DNA of 40,037 nt from an uncultured Pelagibacteraceae bacterium (GTDB lineage: Bacteria > Pseudomonadota > Alphaproteobacteria > Pelagibacterales > Pelagibacteraceae): NCBI GenBank assembly GCA_902558225.1, contig CACEDG010000009.1, forward strand, positions 1-40,037. The letters are read 5' to 3'. The notes beneath the pieces were generated by a model, which was given only the letters and a program-made list of their open reading frames with translations, was not told the DNA's origin and made no database searches. A program made the position numbers and the translations under genes. Shown here in pieces: positions 2 through 9,134 of the stretch; position 1 is the first letter of the stretch, and each line of letters opens with the position of its first letter.

Positions 2-1027
2 AAAGTCGTAAAAATTATAGATCAAACAAAACTACCACACCAATTTATTATTAAAGATCTTAAAACTGTCAATGATGCAACAAATGCAATTAAAACAATG
101 GAAGTTAGAGGTGCGCCACTTATAGGAGCTACCGCAGCTTATGGATTAGTTTTAGCCATTATTGAAAATAATGATCAATCTTTTTTAAAAAAATCTGCAG
201 AAAATTTAATTAGCTCAAGACCAACAGCTATTAATTTAAAATGGGCTGTAGATAGAATGATAAATAAACTATCAGGTGTAAATAGTGATAAAATTTTAGA
301 AATTGTTATAGATGAAGCTAAATCAATTTGTGAAGAGGATATCAAATTTTGTAAAAATATTGGAATTAATGGTCTTAAAATAATTGAAGAAATTTATAAT
401 AAAAAAAAGGATACAGTAAATATTTTAACTCACTGCAATGCAGGTTGGCTTGCAACAATAAATTGGGGAACTGCTACTTCTCCAATATATCATGCTCATA
501 AAAAAGGTATTCCTGTACATATATGGGCTGATGAAACTAGACCAAGAAACCAAGGAGCTAATTTAACATCATTTGAATTAAACGAGGAGGGAATTAAAAA
601 TACAATCATTGCTGATAACACGGGTGGTATTTTGATGCAACGAGGTGAAGTTGATATGTGCATAGTTGGAACGGATAGAACTTTAGCAAATGGTGACGTA
701 TGTAATAAGGTTGGTACTTATCTTAAGGCATTAGCGGCACATGATAATAAAGTTCCTTTTTATGTAGCACTGCCAAGTTCTACAATTGACTGGAATATAA
801 AAGATCACAAAGACATTCCTATAGAAGAAAGAAATTCAGAAGAGTTATCACATATGGAAGGTATTGATGTAAATGGAGACATTAAAAAAATACAAATTTA
901 TCCAAAAAAAAGTAAAGCAATGAATTTAGCGTTTGATATTACACCAGCAAAATATGTTACTGGACTGATTACTGAAAAAGGTATTTGTGATGCATCAACA
1001 GAGGGATTAAAGAAGTTATTCAAATGA
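2..1027 (+). CDS. mtnA: S-methyl-5-thioribose-1-phosphate isomerase, 5' end outside window
   Basis: This is an aldose-ketose isomerase that converts 5-methylthioribose-1-phosphate to 5-methylthioribulose-1-phosphate in methylthioadenosine salvage. The reading frame is open from the first bases, and the segment before the first ATG (position 98) already reads as MtnA (IDQTKLPHQF), so the true start lies upstream of the window. Family motifs seen are RGAPLIG, the cysteine block HCNAGWLA, ADETRPRNQGA and GTDRTLANGDVCNKVGT, which carries the catalytic aspartate. The stop overlaps the ATG of the next gene (ATGA), so translation is probably coupled. The homologous eIF2B-like regulators lack this cysteine/aspartate pair, so I read it as the enzyme. 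Confidence 0.93.
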   Translation, partial: KVVKIIDQTKLPHQFIIKDLKTVNDATNAIKTMEVRGAPLIGATAAYGLVLAIIENNDQSFLKKSAENLISSRPTAINLKWAVDRMINKLSGVNSDKILEIVIDEAKSICEEDIKFCKNIGINGLKIIEEIYNKKKDTVNILTHCNAGWLATINWGTATSPIYHAHKKGIPVHIWADETRPRNQGANLTSFELNEEGIKNTIIADNTGGILMQRGEVDMCIVGTDRTLANGDVCNKVGTYLKALAAHDNKVPFYVALPSSTIDWNIKDHKDIPIEERNSEELSHMEGIDVNGDIKKIQIYPKKSKAMNLAFDITPAKYVTGLITEKGICDASTEGLKKLFK

Positions 1028-1677
1028 AAAATTTAGATCAGAGAAATCAAATTATCGAATATTCTATAAAATTAAATTCTACAAATCTTTCACCGCTTAG
1101 GTCAGGCAACATCTCTTTGAGAGGAAAAGAAGATGATAAAGAAGGATATTTAATTACTCCATCAGGAAAAAAATATGAAACTTTAAAAGCAGAAGATATA
1201 GTCTTTATGGGCTTAAATGAAGAGCTGAGAGATACTTCAAATCAAAATCCATCTTCCGAATGGAGGTTTCATCGTGATATTTATTTAAATAAAAAAGAGG
1301 CACAGGCGATTGTTCACGCCCATTCTCCACACGCAACAGCTGTATCTTCTCATGGCAAAACAATACCGCCATTTCATTATATGATTGCACTAGCTGGAGG
1401 TGAAGACATTAAATGTGCTGATTACGCTACTTTTGGAACAGAGGAGCTTTCTAATAACGTAATTAAAGCATTAGAAAAAAGAAGTGCTTGTTTGATGTCT
1501 AATCACGGTCAGGTTGCTTTTGGAAAAAATTTAGAAGATGCATTTGAACTTGCACAAGAGGTAGAAAATATTTGTCATCAATACACTATTGCACTAAAGT
1601 TGGGAAAACCCAAGATTCTTTCATTTGAGGAAATGAAAAAAGTTTTGGAAAAAGCAAAAAATTATAAAAAAGAGTAA
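1024..1677 (+). CDS. Class II (fuculose-type) aldolase, probable Ald2 of the DHAP shunt
   Basis: This is a 217-residue zinc-dependent class II aldolase/adducin-family protein. It shows SGNIS near residue 28, the phosphate loop LITPSG, PSSEWRFH, the zinc motif HAHSPHA, and a third histidine in NHGQVAFG. Directly after mtnA there are two candidate roles. One is Ald2 of the DHAP shunt, which cleaves 5-methylthioribulose-1-phosphate to dihydroxyacetone phosphate and methylthioacetaldehyde. The other is the dehydratase MtnB of the classical salvage pathway. I favour Ald2 because the motifs look fuculose-aldolase-like and no later methionine-salvage gene (mtnC, mtnD) follows. The ATG overlaps the mtnA stop, and the stop is 1 base before speDE. 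Substrate is inferred, not shown. Confidence 0.8.
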   Translation: MKNLDQRNQIIEYSIKLNSTNLSPLRSGNISLRGKEDDKEGYLITPSGKKYETLKAEDIVFMGLNEELRDTSNQNPSSEWRFHRDIYLNKKEAQAIVHAHSPHATAVSSHGKTIPPFHYMIALAGGEDIKCADYATFGTEELSNNVIKALEKRSACLMSNHGQVAFGKNLEDAFELAQEVENICHQYTIALKLGKPKILSFEEMKKVLEKAKNYKKE

Positions 1678-1678
1678 A

Positions 1679-2719
1679 ATGATTAAAGTTGGGGAGCATA
1701 TTACTTTAGACATAATTGGTACTACAAAAGAGTACGAACCATCAATATATGAAAAAGTTATTAAAGATATAGCTGAAGCAGCTAATGTAACAATTCTTAA
1801 TATTTCTAAATATAAATTTGAACCACAGGGTTTTACAATTCTAGCTTTATTGGCTGAAAGCCATATTAGTTTTCATACATTTCCCGAAAAAGGAATAATA
1901 AGCTTTGATTTTTTTACTTGTGGTAAAATAAGCCCTTCTGTTGCAATTGATATAATTAAAAAAGAATTCAAACATAAAAGAATTGTAAAAAAAGAATTTA
2001 ATAGAGATACGAAAGCTTTATATCACGACATTTATAGCTCACCAGGGTTACAAAAATCTTATGTTGTGAATGATGTTTTAGAGGATTTTAAATCGAAAGT
2101 GGGTCAACACATTGAAATTTTAGATTTAGAACAATTCGGTAAATCATTATTTATTGATGGAGAAATACAAGTCGCTGCCTCTGACGAACATTTATATAGT
2201 TCAACTTTTGTAGGGGCAGGATTAAATTTAAATAAAAAAAATGAAAGAGCAGCAATAATTGGCGGTGGTGATGGTGGCGTAGCTAGAGAATGTATCTCAA
2301 AAAAATTTAATTTTATAGATTGGTTTGAACTTGATCCAGAAGTTGTTGAAATTTGTAATAAACACTTAGGTGATATAGGAAAAAAGGCTACAGAAAAAAA
2401 TTCTGTTAAATGTGTATGGGGGGATGCGTTTGAAAGTATTAAATCAGTCACTGATGACACTTATGATCATATATTTGTGGACTTAAATGATGACCAATTC
2501 TGTATTGATCTTGCTGCAAAAAATATGGACTCTTTAGTAAGAATATTGAAACCAAAAGGCGTGATAACGGCTCAGGTTGGAAGTCAAGATAAAAAACCTC
2601 TTCAAGTTGAAAATTGGATGAATGTGTTTCATCATCATTTTGGAAATACTAAATTATCTCGTGTATACATACCAAGTTTTGATTGTTCTTGGAATTTTTC
2701 CTCTTCAATAAATCACTAA
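1679..2719 (+). CDS. speDE: S-adenosylmethionine decarboxylase-spermidine synthase fusion
   Basis: This is one 346-residue polypeptide carrying two consecutive steps of polyamine synthesis. Residues 1-112 are a bacterial class 1B AdoMet decarboxylase. The self-processing site is ESHISFHT, with cleavage expected between Glu60 and Ser61 to make the pyruvoyl group; His66 and Cys81 (FFTCG) match the family's catalytic pair. Residues about 115-346 are a spermidine synthase-type aminopropyltransferase with DGEIQ, DEHLY, the cofactor loop GGGDGG (196-201), FELD and the acidic motif VDLNDD (268-272). The usual DSSDP-type motif has diverged, so the amine acceptor may not be putrescine. The reaction releases methylthioadenosine, which the two upstream genes can process after its phosphorolysis. 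After self-cleavage the pyruvoyl chain would stay fused to the transferase. Confidence 0.9.
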   Translation: MIKVGEHITLDIIGTTKEYEPSIYEKVIKDIAEAANVTILNISKYKFEPQGFTILALLAESHISFHTFPEKGIISFDFFTCGKISPSVAIDIIKKEFKHKRIVKKEFNRDTKALYHDIYSSPGLQKSYVVNDVLEDFKSKVGQHIEILDLEQFGKSLFIDGEIQVAASDEHLYSSTFVGAGLNLNKKNERAAIIGGGDGGVARECISKKFNFIDWFELDPEVVEICNKHLGDIGKKATEKNSVKCVWGDAFESIKSVTDDTYDHIFVDLNDDQFCIDLAAKNMDSLVRILKPKGVITAQVGSQDKKPLQVENWMNVFHHHFGNTKLSRVYIPSFDCSWNFSSSINH

Positions 2720-2781: not shown

Positions 2782-3609
2782 ATGAATATATTTAAAAAAA
2801 CTATTTTTTCAGTTTTATTTTCTTTATTGGTAATGGGTAATGTTCAAGCCGATAAGATTAAAATTGGAACTGAAGGAGCTTATCCTCCGTGGAATTCAAA
2901 AGATGCCTCAGGTAAGTTAATCGGATTTGAAGTTGAACTAGCCTACACGCTTTGCAGATACATAGGTCAACAATGTACAATAGTTGAGCAAGATTGGGAT
3001 GGAATGATACCGGCTCTAATCATGAGAAAGTTTGATGCAATAATGGCAGGTATGTCAATCACTGCTGAAAGACAAAAGGCAATAAGTTTTTCACAAGGAT
3101 ATGCAGATGAAGTTGCTTCATTAGCAGTAATGAAAGGTTCAAGTTTAGAAGGCTTAGATACACCAGCAGGTATTAATTTAACAAAACCTGATGCTGCTGC
3201 GAAAAAAGCATTAAAAACATTAACTTCTGCTTTAGCAGGTAAAACAGTTTGTGTACAAACTGCTACAATTCACCAAAACTTCTTAGACTCTGGTGATGTT
3301 GGAAAAGTAAATGTAAGAACTTATAAAACTCAAGATGAAGTTAACCTAGATTTAGCATCAGGAAGATGTGATGCTGCATTAGCTGCTGCAGTGGCATTTA
3401 GTGATTATGCAGAAAAATCTGGAAAGCCAGTAGTATTAACTGGACCTACTTTTTCAGGTGGTGCATTTGGTAATGGTGTTGGCGTAGGTATAAGAAAAGA
3501 TGATACTGAACTTCTAAAAAAGTTTAACGCTGCAATCAATAAAGCGAGAAAGAACGGAGATATTAGTAGAATAGCTACTAAATGGTTCGGTTTCGACGCT
3601 TCAATGTAA
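2782..3609 (+). CDS. Amino acid ABC transporter, periplasmic binding protein (octopine/basic amino acid type)
   Basis: This is a periplasmic solute-binding protein of the polar amino acid family (HisJ/ArgT/OccT group). I place the start at 2782 because AGGAG lies at 2771-2775 and this start gives a clean signal peptide ending VQA before residue 24; an in-frame ATG at 2746 would add 12 residues and spoil it. Mature features are EGAYPPWN, a cysteine pair (Cys58, Cys65) at the spot of the HisJ disulfide, QDWDGMIPAL, and the ligand signature FDAIMAGMSIT. An inserted stretch before GKTVCVQTATIHQNF and the segment GKPVVLTGPTFSGG resemble octopine/nopaline binding proteins. Ligand is inferred to be a cationic amino acid or related compound. 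Two permeases follow. Confidence 0.88.
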   Translation: MNIFKKTIFSVLFSLLVMGNVQADKIKIGTEGAYPPWNSKDASGKLIGFEVELAYTLCRYIGQQCTIVEQDWDGMIPALIMRKFDAIMAGMSITAERQKAISFSQGYADEVASLAVMKGSSLEGLDTPAGINLTKPDAAAKKALKTLTSALAGKTVCVQTATIHQNFLDSGDVGKVNVRTYKTQDEVNLDLASGRCDAALAAAVAFSDYAEKSGKPVVLTGPTFSGGAFGNGVGVGIRKDDTELLKKFNAAINKARKNGDISRIATKWFGFDASM

Positions 3610-3623
3610 TCAAATTTTAGATC

Positions 3624-3648
3624 TGGCGACTATAAACAATGGTCGCCA
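3624..3648 (+). promoter_or_regulatory. Intercistronic hairpin between binding protein and permease genes
   Basis: A perfect 7-bp stem (TGGCGAC at 3624-3630, GTCGCCA at 3642-3648) encloses an 11-base loop. It is conspicuously GC-rich for this sequence and fills most of the 45-bp gap, ending 6 bases before the permease ATG. No U tract follows, so it is probably not a factor-independent terminator. The likely role, by analogy with other transport operons, is to protect the 3' end of the binding-protein message or lower translation of the permease. Confidence 0.6.
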
Positions 3649-3654
3649 ATCTTT

Positions 3655-4347
3655 ATGGAACTTCTAGCATTTGGAGATACTGGTTGGGGTGATGAGCTTT
3701 TTTATGCAACTCTAATGACAATTGCTGTAGCTATTACAGCAATGCTTATTGGTTTTTTCTTCGCATTAATATTCACTCCCCTTAAATTATCAAAAAATAA
3801 ATTTTTAAATTTAATAGCAAATACTTACACCACAATCATTCGAGGAGTTCCAGAATTACTAGTCATCTACTTATTTTTTTTCGGAGGTAGTGCAGCAGTA
3901 ATGTTTGTTGCATCTATTTTTGGATATGGTGAGTATATTGAAATAAATGCTTTTATAACTGGTGCATTCTCAATTGGAATAATATCGGGAGCATATTCAA
4001 CTGAAGTTTTTAGAGGAGCGATACAATCAATTGATAAAGGCCAATTTGAAGCGGCAAATGTTTTGGGATTAAGTAAATTTGGTAAGTTTTTCAAAATTAT
4101 ACTTCCGCAAACTTTAAGATTAGCTTTACCCAACTTAAGTAATGTTTGGCAAATAACTTTAAAAGATACCTCTTTAATTATGGTGACTGGATTAGTTGAA
4201 ATTATGAGACAGTCTTATGTTGCTGCAGGATCTACCAGAGATCCGTTGTTTTTCTATTCTTGTGCAGCTGTTTTATATTTGTTTTTGACGTTTTTAAGTA
4301 TGAAATTAATTAATAGATTAGAACTGAAATATAGTAAGGGGTATTGA
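3655..4347 (+). CDS. Amino acid ABC transporter permease (HisQ/OccQ type)
   Basis: This 230-residue inner-membrane permease belongs to the polar amino acid (HisMQ) family. It has about five hydrophobic segments, the conserved RGVPELL after the second segment (63-69), and the cytoplasmic EAA loop (about 132-151, EAANVLGLSKFGKFF) that docks the ATPase. The start ATG lies just after the intercistronic hairpin and has no clear Shine-Dalgarno sequence, so expression may be well below that of the binding protein. It pairs with the next gene as a heterodimer. Confidence 0.88.
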   Translation: MELLAFGDTGWGDELFYATLMTIAVAITAMLIGFFFALIFTPLKLSKNKFLNLIANTYTTIIRGVPELLVIYLFFFGGSAAVMFVASIFGYGEYIEINAFITGAFSIGIISGAYSTEVFRGAIQSIDKGQFEAANVLGLSKFGKFFKIILPQTLRLALPNLSNVWQITLKDTSLIMVTGLVEIMRQSYVAAGSTRDPLFFYSCAAVLYLFLTFLSMKLINRLELKYSKGY

Positions 4348-5018
4348 TGGATATAGAGTTAATGGTCAATAGTTTTCCTAAATTACTTAGCGCCTCATTA
4401 ATAACTTTAAAACTTCTTTCCGCTTCTTTAATCGTAGGTTTATTTATTGGACTATTATTTGCAATTTTAAGATTAAACAAAAATATTTTTATGAATAAAT
4501 TTGCCTATGGTTATTCATATTTGTTTAGAGGAACACCATTGTTAGTTCAAATATTCATTATTTATTATGGTTTAGGCAATATTGAGTATTTAAGAACAAC
4601 AGTTTTATGGGTAATTTTAAAAGAACCTTATTGGTGTGCAATAATTGCTTTTTCATTGAATACTGGTGCCTATACGTCTGAAATATTAAGATCTGCTTTT
4701 CAAACAATCAAGCCTGGTATTATAGAAGCTGGCAAGAGCCTAGGTATACCAAGTAAAATAATCTTCTATAAAATTCAAATTCCAATAGCGATTAGACAAT
4801 CTTTACCTGCCTATGGAAATGAAATAATTTTAATGCTTAAAGGGACTTCATTGGCAAGCACGGTGACATTAATGGATCTTACTGGAGTTGCTAAGTATAT
4901 TATCTCCACAACTTTTAAACCTATAGAGGTATTTATTGTAGCTGGTGGAATATATTTATTTATGACTTTTGTTGTTCACAATGTGATTAAATTTTTGGAG
5001 AAGAAATATAGTTATTAA
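4347..5018 (+). CDS. Amino acid ABC transporter permease (HisM/OccM type)
   Basis: This is the second permease of the importer, 223 residues from the ATG at 4347, which overlaps the upstream TGA by one base; a TTG one codon earlier is a less likely start. It shows RGTPLLVQ (61-68) and an EAA-type loop (about 127-146, EAGKSLGIPSKIIFY). It completes the membrane channel with the preceding gene. No ATP-binding subunit follows: the next gene is on the other strand. The ATPase must be encoded elsewhere or shared with another system. Its 3' end overlaps the convergent DUF6165 gene by 4 bp. Confidence 0.88.
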   Translation: MDIELMVNSFPKLLSASLITLKLLSASLIVGLFIGLLFAILRLNKNIFMNKFAYGYSYLFRGTPLLVQIFIIYYGLGNIEYLRTTVLWVILKEPYWCAIIAFSLNTGAYTSEILRSAFQTIKPGIIEAGKSLGIPSKIIFYKIQIPIAIRQSLPAYGNEIILMLKGTSLASTVTLMDLTGVAKYIISTTFKPIEVFIVAGGIYLFMTFVVHNVIKFLEKKYSY

Positions 5019-7451: not shown

Positions 7452-8005
7452 TAATTATTTTTCCACTTAATACCACAGCCCGCACTTGGAATTTGTTTCT
7501 CAGGTCCTTTTCCAGTCTCAGCAATTTGCTTCATTGATTTGTAAAGATCACTTTTACCATCTCTAACTGGAATTAAATTTTTAAGCTCTCTTAACCTTCC
7601 TCTATATTGAAGTTCTAGATTTTTGTTATAGCCAAAAAAATCAGGGGTACAAACAGCATCATAAGTTTTTGCAATTTCTTGTGTTTCATCATTTAGATAT
7701 GGAAAACTAAATTGATGTTTTTTTGCAAATATGATCATGTTTTCAAATGAGTCTTCAGGATAGTTTTCAGCATCGTTTGCACAAATAGCAACGGAATTAA
7801 TACCTATTTCTTTCAATTTTTTACAATCTTCAACGATATCTTTTGTTACAGCTTTAACGTAAGGACAATGATTACATATAAACATTATTAAGGTTCCTTT
7901 TTCACCTTTAACATCATCTAAAGAAATAATTTTACCATCAGTTGATTTAAGCCTAAAGTCAAAGGCCTTTTGACCAAAATCACATATTGGAGTTTGTATT
8001 GGCAT
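7451..8005 (-). CDS. Thioredoxin-fold (AhpC/TSA-type) protein
   Basis: This is a 184-residue cytoplasmic protein of the AhpC/TSA-Redoxin group. The N-terminal part has FRLKSTDGKIISLDDVKG followed by MFICNHCPYVKA, so the usual redox CXXC is CNHC. The conserved cis-proline region is CTPDFFGY, and the end has PSAGCGIKWK with a further cysteine. The family is widespread and its substrate is poorly defined; a thiol peroxidase or disulfide reductase role is plausible. No signal peptide is present. The start is 20 bp from a divergent gene. Confidence 0.85.
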   Translation of the reverse strand: MPIQTPICDFGQKAFDFRLKSTDGKIISLDDVKGEKGTLIMFICNHCPYVKAVTKDIVEDCKKLKEIGINSVAICANDAENYPEDSFENMIIFAKKHQFSFPYLNDETQEIAKTYDAVCTPDFFGYNKNLELQYRGRLRELKNLIPVRDGKSDLYKSMKQIAETGKGPEKQIPSAGCGIKWKNN

Positions 8006-8025
8006 AATGTAATAATATATAAATT
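8006..8025. promoter_or_regulatory. 20-bp divergent promoter gap
   Basis: Only 20 AT-only-rich bases separate two divergent ATGs. On the plus strand TATAAA lies at 8018-8023, directly before the ATG at 8026. On the minus strand TATTAT lies at 8012-8017, six bases before the start at 8005. If these are the -10 elements, both mRNAs begin at or near their start codons and each -35 region falls inside the opposite gene. In such AT-rich DNA these matches are weak evidence. Confidence 0.3.
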
Positions 8026-8538
8026 ATGTTTTACGATTTAAAAGATAAAAAACCAAAAAACTCTGGCGAAAATTGGGTAGCACCCAATGCAACCATTATT
8101 GGTGATGTTACTTTAGAGAAAAACTCTAGTATTTGGTTTAATGCGACTTTAAGAGGAGATATTGAAAATATTCATATCGGCGAGGGATCAAATGTTCAAG
8201 ATGGAAGTGTCTTGCATACAGATCCAGGTTGTCCATTAAAAGTTGGCAAGGATGTAACCATAGGCCATATGGTTATGCTTCATGGATGCACGATAGGGGA
8301 TAATAGTTTAATTGGAATTGGTGCAGTGATCCTTAATAACGCCAAGATTGGAAAAAATTGTATTATAGGTGCAAAAGCTTTAATTACAGAAAACAAAGAA
8401 ATACCAGATAACTCACTAGTGATTGGTTCACCAGGAAAAGTCGTTAGAGAAGTTACCGAAGAAGAAAAAAAAGCAGTAGCAGAAAATACAAAGCATTATC
8501 AAGATAATTGGAAAAAATATTCTAAATCAATTTTTTAA
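8026..8538 (+). CDS. Gamma-carbonic anhydrase family protein
   Basis: This is a 170-residue left-handed beta-helix protein built of hexapeptide repeats, in the YrdA/PaaY/CaiE gamma-carbonic anhydrase group. The three zinc histidines of the family appear in VLHTDPG and in IGHMVMLHGCTIG. The start, WVAPNATIIGDV, is typical. It may hydrate carbon dioxide or act as a thioesterase-like accessory protein; many members have no measured activity. It is the only gene in its transcription unit, and its end overlaps the next, convergent gene by 4 bp. Confidence 0.88.
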   Translation: MFYDLKDKKPKNSGENWVAPNATIIGDVTLEKNSSIWFNATLRGDIENIHIGEGSNVQDGSVLHTDPGCPLKVGKDVTIGHMVMLHGCTIGDNSLIGIGAVILNNAKIGKNCIIGAKALITENKEIPDNSLVIGSPGKVVREVTEEEKKAVAENTKHYQDNWKKYSKSIF

Positions 8539-9134
8539 GGAACTAGCCAAGCATTCTTGTTAGTTTCTAAATCAAACTTGGCTCTTCGATGTCCTTTGGC
8601 AGCAAGATACAACCATTCAATAGACTTCATTTTACATTTAATAACTGTAAAGTTTTTATAACCTTCTTCACTTTGTTCCATAGTGTAATCAAAATCCTCT
8701 AATTTAGATATCATTCCAGAAGTTGGATTTTCCGATGCAGTTCCTGGGGGACTATCAGTTAAATAGCACCTTCTACTTATATGTTGAGTTTTTTTCCAAG
8801 ATTCTTCTGTTGTAGAATTTTGATTATTCACTTCACACTCAACTTTTACTCTTAATTGTATCTTTTCCTCTTTATCGTAGAAAACTAGAGAGGCATTCTT
8901 ATTTTTTTTTAGAATATCTACCTTTAGAGATCTTAAATCAGTATGAAATTGTAATACATTATTTGCTCTATCTGATTTACGTAATACGACAATTCTTCCA
9001 TCAACTTCATCTTGGTGAGCACAAATGAAAACAGGAATTCTAAATGGTGAACCTCTGTTAGTCACAGCATCATCTAGCATAGACCAATACTTATTCTGAA
9101 TTTCTTCTAAATTTTCATAGTATGCTGGTTGCAT
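8535..9134 (-). CDS. Pyridoxamine 5'-phosphate oxidase-like flavin-binding protein
   Basis: This 199-residue protein has the split-barrel FMN-binding fold. It shows GRIVVLRKSDRANNVLQFHTD, the FMN phosphate-contact region of the PNPOx family, and ends with WLYLAAKGHRRAKF, a C-terminal pattern of the Alr4036-like subgroup. It is not canonical PdxH, which is longer in its C-terminal pyridoxal-binding part, so the substrate is unknown. It starts 3 bp after the stop of the upstream dehydrogenase gene and is probably cotranscribed with it. Confidence 0.8.
   Translation of the reverse strand: MQPAYYENLEEIQNKYWSMLDDAVTNRGSPFRIPVFICAHQDEVDGRIVVLRKSDRANNVLQFHTDLRSLKVDILKKNKNASLVFYDKEEKIQLRVKVECEVNNQNSTTEESWKKTQHISRRCYLTDSPPGTASENPTSGMISKLEDFDYTMEQSEEGYKNFTVIKCKMKSIEWLYLAAKGHRRAKFDLETNKNAWLVP

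Follow-up and report, generated by a model that had tools for sequence, protein, structure and literature searches.

The dihydroxyacetone phosphate (DHAP) shunt and its MtnP variant are already known (PMC10986504), as are fusions of SpeD with SpeE, those of Candidatus Pelagibacter strains HTCC1062 and HTCC7211 being functional spermidine/spermine/thermospermine synthases (PMC11107197). Papers are cited here by PMC number. We describe a locus in which shunt and fusion are joined, at the start of a 40,037-nucleotide stretch of DNA (the window; assembly GCA_902558225.1, contig CACEDG010000009.1, positions 1 to 40,037 of the forward strand) from an uncultured Pelagibacteraceae bacterium. It makes up the opening 40 kb of contig C9 in a SAR11 assembly of 871 kb in 42 contigs (74% complete), and starts with mtnA, a class II aldolase gene and a speD–speE fusion (speDE). 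We consider it highly probable that these genes form part of a polyamine cassette with built-in disposal of methylthioadenosine (MTA) by the MtnP variant of the DHAP shunt.

The Rhodospirillum rubrum-type shunt (MtnP variant) consists of MtnP, MtnA and a FucA-like class II aldolase. The same three are clustered in SAR11, and MtnD was likewise found in none of 61 SAR11 relatives, many of them incomplete and 18 at least 90% complete. The SAR11 cluster differs in being joined to speDE in a tight run with apt divergent, and in the lack of a nitrogenase-like reductase over the cut-off (0/61). In R. rubrum that enzyme (methylthio-alkane reductase) provides an anaerobic route back to methionine. Extraintestinal E. 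coli share mtnA and Ald2 with SAR11 in the cluster mtnK–mtnA–ald2; their shunt, however, employs a nucleosidase and a kinase and serves growth on external deoxynucleosides as carbon, whereas SAR11 has a phosphorylase beside the MTA producer. The sulfur accumulates in E. coli as 2-methylthioethanol (PMC10986504). DrdK, DrdI and DrdA of Bacillus thuringiensis, which include homologues of the isomerase and the class II aldolase, together also turn 5-methylthioribose into DHAP (PMC6079011), but this system uses a kinase rather than a phosphorylase and disposes of 5-deoxyribose in a bacterium equipped with methionine salvage as well. The fusion of HTCC1062 and HTCC7211 is the same as that of the window; the MTA modules beside it are what is added here, and the available part of PMC11107197 mentions no gene neighbours of SpeDE. 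The SpeDE fusion and the DHAP shunt were each known before this analysis. A literature search found neither the union of speDE with the shunt, nor a slot in which modules are swapped, nor an aldolase/dehydrogenase fusion as a second shunt aldolase; most subscription literature lay outside that search, and an earlier notice is possible.

The mtnA–aldolase–speDE cluster

The genes of the cluster, and the domains of SpeDE, are the following.

2..1027, + strand: mtnA, methylthioribose-1-phosphate isomerase; truncated 5′ at the start of the contig, with about 15 codons missing
1024..1677, + strand: FucA/Ald2-type class II aldolase, 217 aa (PF00596, 176 bits)
1679..2719, + strand: speD–speE fusion (SpeDE), S-adenosylmethionine (AdoMet) decarboxylase and aminopropyltransferase, 346 aa (PF02675, PF17284, PF01564)
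1697..2005, + strand: AdoMet decarboxylase domain of SpeDE (PF02675, residues 7–109)
2033..2698, + strand: aminopropyltransferase domain of SpeDE (PF17284 from residue 119, PF01564 to residue 340)

The mtnA product has 341 residues in the window against 356 at full length in relatives. It exceeds the curated cut-offs for MtnA (TIGR00512 of NCBIfam, 415 bits against 279; PRK05720, 448 against 271) and its best match in the PDB is 1t9k. The two SpeDE domains share one reading frame, in which AESHISFHTFPE lies at 59, FDFFTCG at 76, GGGDGG at 195 and VDLNDD at 267; we take the cleavage-site and GGGDGG motifs among these to have their customary roles. The sequence-only reading had described the three genes as tightly overlapped. 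This is true of mtnA and the aldolase gene, which overlap by 4 bp with ATGA common to both, and not of the aldolase gene and speDE, which abut with a gap of 1 bp. The three-gene observation itself is confirmed.

Gene order was compared in 80 named Pelagibacteraceae loci, the best 80 of 134 relatives by aldolase similarity (86–100% identical). The mtnA/aldolase overlap is identical in 80/80, and the aldolase/speDE gap is the same in all 79 loci that reach speDE; because these junctions are conserved across SAR11 loci, the arrangement is not due to chance. Among the 80, mtnA is present in 80, mtnP in 76, a divergent apt in 75, speDE in 79 and a substrate-binding protein gene in 74. Some absences are contig edges (loci L036, L096, L097, L103 and L052 in our numbering), while four loci have full flanks and still lack the substrate-binding protein (L028, L033, L042 and L094). 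In 54 of 75 loci apt and mtnP are separated by 41 bp. The distance from mtnP to mtnA is at most 60 bp in 53 of 76 loci and larger in the other 23, often 908–928 bp. Closest among the named relatives is L027 (AG-894-I19), which shares 97% identity with the window DNA over 11.67 kb; upstream of its mtnA come an open reading frame (ORF) for a secreted hydrolase-like protein (about 300 residues), then mtnP and then apt, which is divergent. The prediction of mtnP just upstream was thus borne out in L027 and in most of the named loci. Of the proposed three-gene operon the grouping stands but the extent does not, the unit being mtnP–mtnA–aldolase–speDE with apt divergent.

The space between mtnP and mtnA is variously filled. 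Several SAR11 loci have there a secreted α/β-hydrolase-like protein of about 300 residues (L027:7021–7957, L038:8025–8933), for the L038 copy of which no Pfam match was found. Two others have a PhyH-type dioxygenase (L171:6304–7095, L173:15651–16442; Pfam match for the L171 copy), and the genomes of both carry a sulfatase-like gene, named by eye, 3′ of mtnA.

TIGR01694 (MtnP) is over its cut-off in 28 of the 61 relatives. In the same set 27 genomes have both mtnA and the SpeD domain, 2 have only mtnA, 6 only SpeD and 26 neither (Fisher 3e-9, uncorrected for relatedness). Two of the SpeD-only genomes (G012 and G019) have a short nucleosidase gene adjoining speDE, two (G001 and G005) have the aldolase gene in that position, mtnA being absent from the DNA read around it, and two (G039 and G050) have a separate SpeD; the mtnA-only genomes are G031 and G041.

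The likeliest mechanism is MTA disposal in step with aminopropyl transfer. SpeDE would decarboxylate AdoMet and move the aminopropyl group to putrescine and spermidine, giving one MTA per transfer; E. coli expressing homologous SpeDE fusions makes spermidine and spermine (PMC11107197). MtnP, encoded upstream in relatives, would convert MTA by phosphorolysis to adenine and methylthioribose-1-phosphate, and Apt, encoded divergently from mtnP, would return the adenine to AMP. Methylthioribose-1-phosphate would be isomerised by MtnA and the sugar phosphate then split by the FucA/Ald2-type aldolase into DHAP, which would enter central metabolism, and 2-methylthioacetaldehyde. This C2 methylthio piece would probably be reduced to 2-methylthioethanol or oxidised, and then lost, so that methionine is probably not regenerated. 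The interpretation of the locus as polyamine synthesis coupled to by-product disposal is well supported overall. It draws on the gene content and order, the aldolase residues, the failure to find MtnD and the replacement of one module by another, all of which were observed; the aldolase substrate, the stoichiometric coupling, co-transcription and what becomes of the methylthio group are our inference.

Exchange of modules beside speDE

A speDE gene was found in 114 of 147 Pelagibacteraceae genomes, from 12 of 14 genera. Its upstream DNA was read for 113 of these (110 loci, L219–L327 and L181, together with the window and L183/L184), G563 being left out as its speDE lies at a contig start. The upstream neighbour is the aldolase in 66 genomes (a count that includes L258, at a contig edge, and L281, with the aldolase in two pieces in different frames), an aldolase/short-chain dehydrogenase (SDR) fusion in 39, a short nucleosidase-like gene in 6 and a decayed module in one, and in the last (L299) the locus is cut by a contig end. 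The fusion, of about 677 residues, is encoded on the opposite strand, divergent from speDE. The short nucleosidase-like gene, of about 175 residues, stands without mtnP and mtnA. In the decayed module (L269, oriented 7909–9001) mtnP and a 132-bp aldolase remnant precede speDE and there is no mtnA. Where at least 3.5 kb of upstream DNA was available, aldolase loci have mtnP in 54/54, mtnA in 54/54 and apt in 53/54, fusion loci have mtnP in 33/35, mtnA in 35/35 and apt in 32/35, and short-nucleosidase loci have apt in 6/6. Every Pelagibacteraceae genus found to have the aldolase also shows its linkage to mtnP. Conservation of the gene order across Pelagibacterales had been raised as a point to survey: the order is widespread in Pelagibacteraceae, and many genomes carry another module.

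The neighbours appear to have changed repeatedly. A tree built from 110 SpeDE proteins (quick search; two rows, L269 and L299, without a module state) requires 8 changes among the three module states, and for the aldolase label at least 7 changes are forced by the well-supported (starred) branches alone. G466, with the short nucleosidase, and G514, with the aldolase, are sisters (support 99), and G548 and G509, with the aldolase, stand beside G562, G585, G570 and G540, with the fusion (support 84). G475 carries the aldolase module (mtnP–mtnA–aldolase). Just beyond apt, dTDP (deoxythymidine diphosphate)-sugar genes recognised by eye, as in a surface-polysaccharide cluster, are present at L038:4172–6578 and L053:4162–6565. 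A variable region beyond apt might account for the frequent exchange at the speDE locus; flanking-gene terms were looked for in the O-chain paper PMC11898729 and none was found.

The SAR11 aldolase/SDR fusion matches NF006192 over the cut-off in the three proteins scanned and has the same domain pair as RhaEW. The Chloroflexus RhaEW uses NAD+ in turning rhamnulose-1-phosphate into DHAP and lactate, and was inactive in the reductive test (PMC3870299). Orthologues of RhaEW are said always to sit in rha loci (PMC3870299), whereas the SAR11 fusion and nine plasmid relatives lie beside or near mtnA. The nine were examined from the best 15 of 2615 matching plasmid records and are about 47–50% identical to the SAR11 fusion; mtnA is within about 6 kb of the fusion in 9/9, mtnK is beside mtnA in eight, and on the Tistrella plasmid mtnA is directly upstream of the fusion. 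Since eight come from Rhizobiaceae, the nine are not independent cases. In L346 the fusion gene is fragmented. Annotation near the fusion is available for five of the nine, and it includes sugar-type ATP-binding cassette (ABC) transporter genes. In Ensifer sp. PDNC004 (L349:15211–20049) two transketolase genes and one for a RuBisCO-like protein come after mtnK–mtnA, which lies near the fusion. Within SAR11, the fusion of G041 is encoded 3′ of mtnA in the same direction, the two genes overlapping by 11 bp.

As part of the main reading, we interpret the place upstream of speDE as a slot for MTA disposal. Other SAR11 lineages would occupy it with mtnP–mtnA and the RhaEW-like fusion, which would also oxidise the aldehyde, or with the short nucleosidase-like protein, which would leave methylthioribose as waste. 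The short protein is below the cut-offs of the nucleosidase families (96 bits at best, where 129 are required); nearly all of its relatives of solved structure are MTA/S-adenosylhomocysteine nucleosidases. The balance of evidence tips slightly towards a combined reading in which SAR11 keeps a by-product slot beside speDE where three MTA modules replace each other (mtnP–mtnA–Ald2, mtnP–mtnA–RhaEW-like aldolase/dehydrogenase and the short nucleosidase), and in which the fusion would be a second, self-contained shunt enzyme yielding DHAP and methylthioacetate from methylthioribulose-1-phosphate.

Further genes, all named by eye, lie between mtnA and the fusion. One group of loci has an enoyl-CoA-hydratase-like and a CoA-binding-like gene (11 loci each; L292:5596, L303:6379), possibly for further steps on the aldehyde or acid. 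A small SMR-like transporter gene (L247:6514) occurs in 12 loci and a lactate/malate-dehydrogenase-like gene (L254:5866) in 4.

Aldolase identity and alternative explanations

The window aldolase, the sole PF00596 match in its own 74% complete genome, is proposed to be a methylthioribulose-1-phosphate (and 5-deoxyribulose-1-phosphate) aldolase. It gives 61–67 bits against the MtnB profile (cut-off 137) and reaches neither of the FucA profiles (TIGR01086, 169 bits against 400; PRK08087, about 188–194 against 264). Ald2 of E. coli S88, encoded after mtnK–mtnA, received a FucA-like verdict with 68 bits for MtnB and passes PRK08087, so that this cut-off cannot separate Ald2 from FucA; E. coli Ald2 is described as remarkably similar to R. 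rubrum Ald2 (PMC6302742). FucA is the best PDB match of the window aldolase, which also matches 6btd at 2e-37, the structure of DrdA from B. thuringiensis (PMC6079011).

Residues were aligned, with the numbering of E. coli FucA, for 22 SAR11 and 25 alphaproteobacterial aldolases, E. coli S88 Ald2 and four MtnB (from four of five MtnB loci, L329 being left out). Glu73, His92, His94, Tyr113, His155 and Tyr209 are kept in 22/22, in 25/25 and in S88 Ald2, whereas in all four MtnB position 113 is Leu or Phe and position 209 falls in a gap. Presumably Tyr113, Tyr209 and the other aligned FucA residues are catalytic. The alphaproteobacterial set includes L149, although mtnA and mtnP are absent from its short flank.

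A search of 385 alphaproteobacterial genomes gave 115 with an aldolase relative at E ≤1e-25, of which the best 30 places were fetched with 1.5-kb flanks. After removal of the window and two of its genus, the aldolase adjoins mtnA and/or mtnP in 26 of the 27 best-scoring loci (L138–L164; the exception is L149), several with apt alongside. L139 and L140, among the 26, belong to another Pelagibacteraceae genus and also have speDE. The aldolase therefore belongs to a common alphaproteobacterial mtnP–mtnA–ald cluster. MtnB exceeds its cut-off in 5 of the 115 genomes, at 177–195 bits. A different class II aldolase-domain protein of 241–263 residues is present in 31 of the 61 SAR11 genomes (e.g. G012:C1:825217–825750), comprising 21 of 24 genomes of family f2 and 10 of 37 of the genus of the window.

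Several observations weigh against a polyamine cassette with its own MTA disposal. MtnP (TIGR01694) was not found in the incomplete assembly of the window, in which the contig ends inside mtnA, and L059 has neither mtnP nor apt in its 10 kb upstream. G041, of another family, has apt–mtnP–mtnA–aldolase/SDR without any SpeD match, and in G031 (76% complete) mtnP and mtnA are present but aldolase and SpeD are not; the module is therefore not strictly tied to polyamine synthesis. The window aldolase is 45% identical to E. coli FucA and 36% to E. coli Ald2, and with this closer identity to FucA sequence alone leaves the substrate unfixed. In 21/22 SAR11 aldolases, Ala, Val, Met or Ser takes the place of Phe206, which FucA shares with Ald2 of E. 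coli; this replacement would perhaps give a wider pocket for the methylthio tail. FucA-like relatives on Sagittula and Mesorhizobium plasmids are in other clusters and do not adjoin mtnA. Finally, a promoter and terminator scan of L053 yielded nothing usable: promoter-like matches were fewer than in shuffles (24 against a mean of 33.6) and terminator-like matches numbered 4 against 2.5, so the scan, including a TTCATA-17-TATAAT site directly before mtnP, is not used as evidence.

Of the alternatives, the one that best survives is that the module acts mainly on 5′-deoxyadenosine from radical-SAM (S-adenosylmethionine) enzymes, its proximity to speDE being inherited or incidental. The shunt does serve both MTA and 5′-deoxyadenosine (PMC10986504; PMC6079011), and G041 shows that the module can occur without SpeD. 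A purely 5′-deoxyadenosine module would, however, have no reason to keep a place adjacent to speDE, and alternative MTA-acting modules recur there through about 8 changes, which makes this explanation unlikely.

Action of the aldolase on L-fuculose-1-phosphate or another unrelated sugar phosphate is considerably less probable. Against the best solved relative being FucA, with the identity given above, and the presence of similar proteins in other clusters elsewhere, stand the overlap with mtnA in every named locus and the linkage to mtnP in each aldolase-bearing Pelagibacteraceae genus. Linkage to mtnA or mtnP extends to other Alphaproteobacteria, a different aldolase family occupies the same place in other lineages, and the curated FucA cut-offs are not reached. 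A plain FucA identity was set aside by gene context.

Marginally less probable again is that SpeDE runs in reverse, in SAR11 polyamine catabolism, with MTA as a substrate and the neighbours merely trimming the MTA pool. In its favour, a reversible SpeE has been proposed for HTCC7211 (PMC8437039). Against it, spermidine and spermine are the products of homologous fusions in E. coli (PMC11107197), and the neighbouring modules would remove MTA and therefore pull the reaction towards synthesis.

The weakest alternative, that the aldolase is the dehydratase MtnB feeding classical methionine salvage, has in its favour the adjoining mtnA and a Pfam family common to MtnB and class II aldolases but is largely refuted, MtnB being ruled out by a score far from those of MtnB from the five alphaproteobacterial genomes, by the presence of Tyr113 and Tyr209 and by the lack of MtnD in the relatives. 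The original assignment as Ald2-type and not MtnB is thereby upheld, as is, for its MtnD part, the expectation that classical salvage genes would be missing. Acireductone dioxygenase MtnD (PF03079) was matched in 5 of 14 control genomes, in 2 over the cut-off, and in none of the 61 relatives. For the nitrogenase-like reductase (PF00148), 34 of the 61 gave weak partial matches of about 17–20 bits. With no MtnB or MtnD found and no such reductase over the cut-off (MtnC was not searched), methionine regeneration is improbable.

Neighbouring genes and consequences for SAR11

Downstream of speDE the window continues with transporter genes.

2782..3609, + strand: ABC substrate-binding protein, family 3 (Lys/Arg/Orn type); TIGR01096 235 bits, below the cut-off of 256
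3655..5018, + strand: two amino-acid ABC permeases (ORFs 3655–4347 and 4344–5018); TIGR01726 over the cut-off in both

The start at 2782 was set from relatives, the ORF list having 2746, and membership of the substrate-binding protein in the speDE unit is uncertain. No ATPase gene for the permeases is among the next ORFs listed after 5018. The substrate-binding protein and permeases (2782–5018) possibly supply ornithine or arginine for putrescine.

An Rfam scan at gathering scores of the window and five loci gave no riboswitch, and only three tRNAs (L053, L227 and L232). Phage carriage of the SpeDE fusion was not found: none of 134 matching phage records aligns over 80% of the query, and the 15 listed are SpeD-type matches of cyanophages.

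SAR11 are the most abundant heterotrophs of the surface ocean. Assimilatory sulfate reduction is missing from P. ubique, which depends on reduced sulfur compounds (PMC5069961); the route proposed here would spend one methylthio group per aminopropyl transfer and not recover it. If true, the reading of the fusion as a shunt enzyme suggests a function for NF006192, ‘bifunctional aldolase/short-chain dehydrogenase’, near mtnA. Polyamine synthesis in SAR11 would likewise be a source of small organosulfur compounds, the identity of which is set by the module of the strain, and close SAR11 strains making the same polyamine would differ in the sulfur product that they release, be it methylthioethanol, methylthioacetate or methylthioribose.

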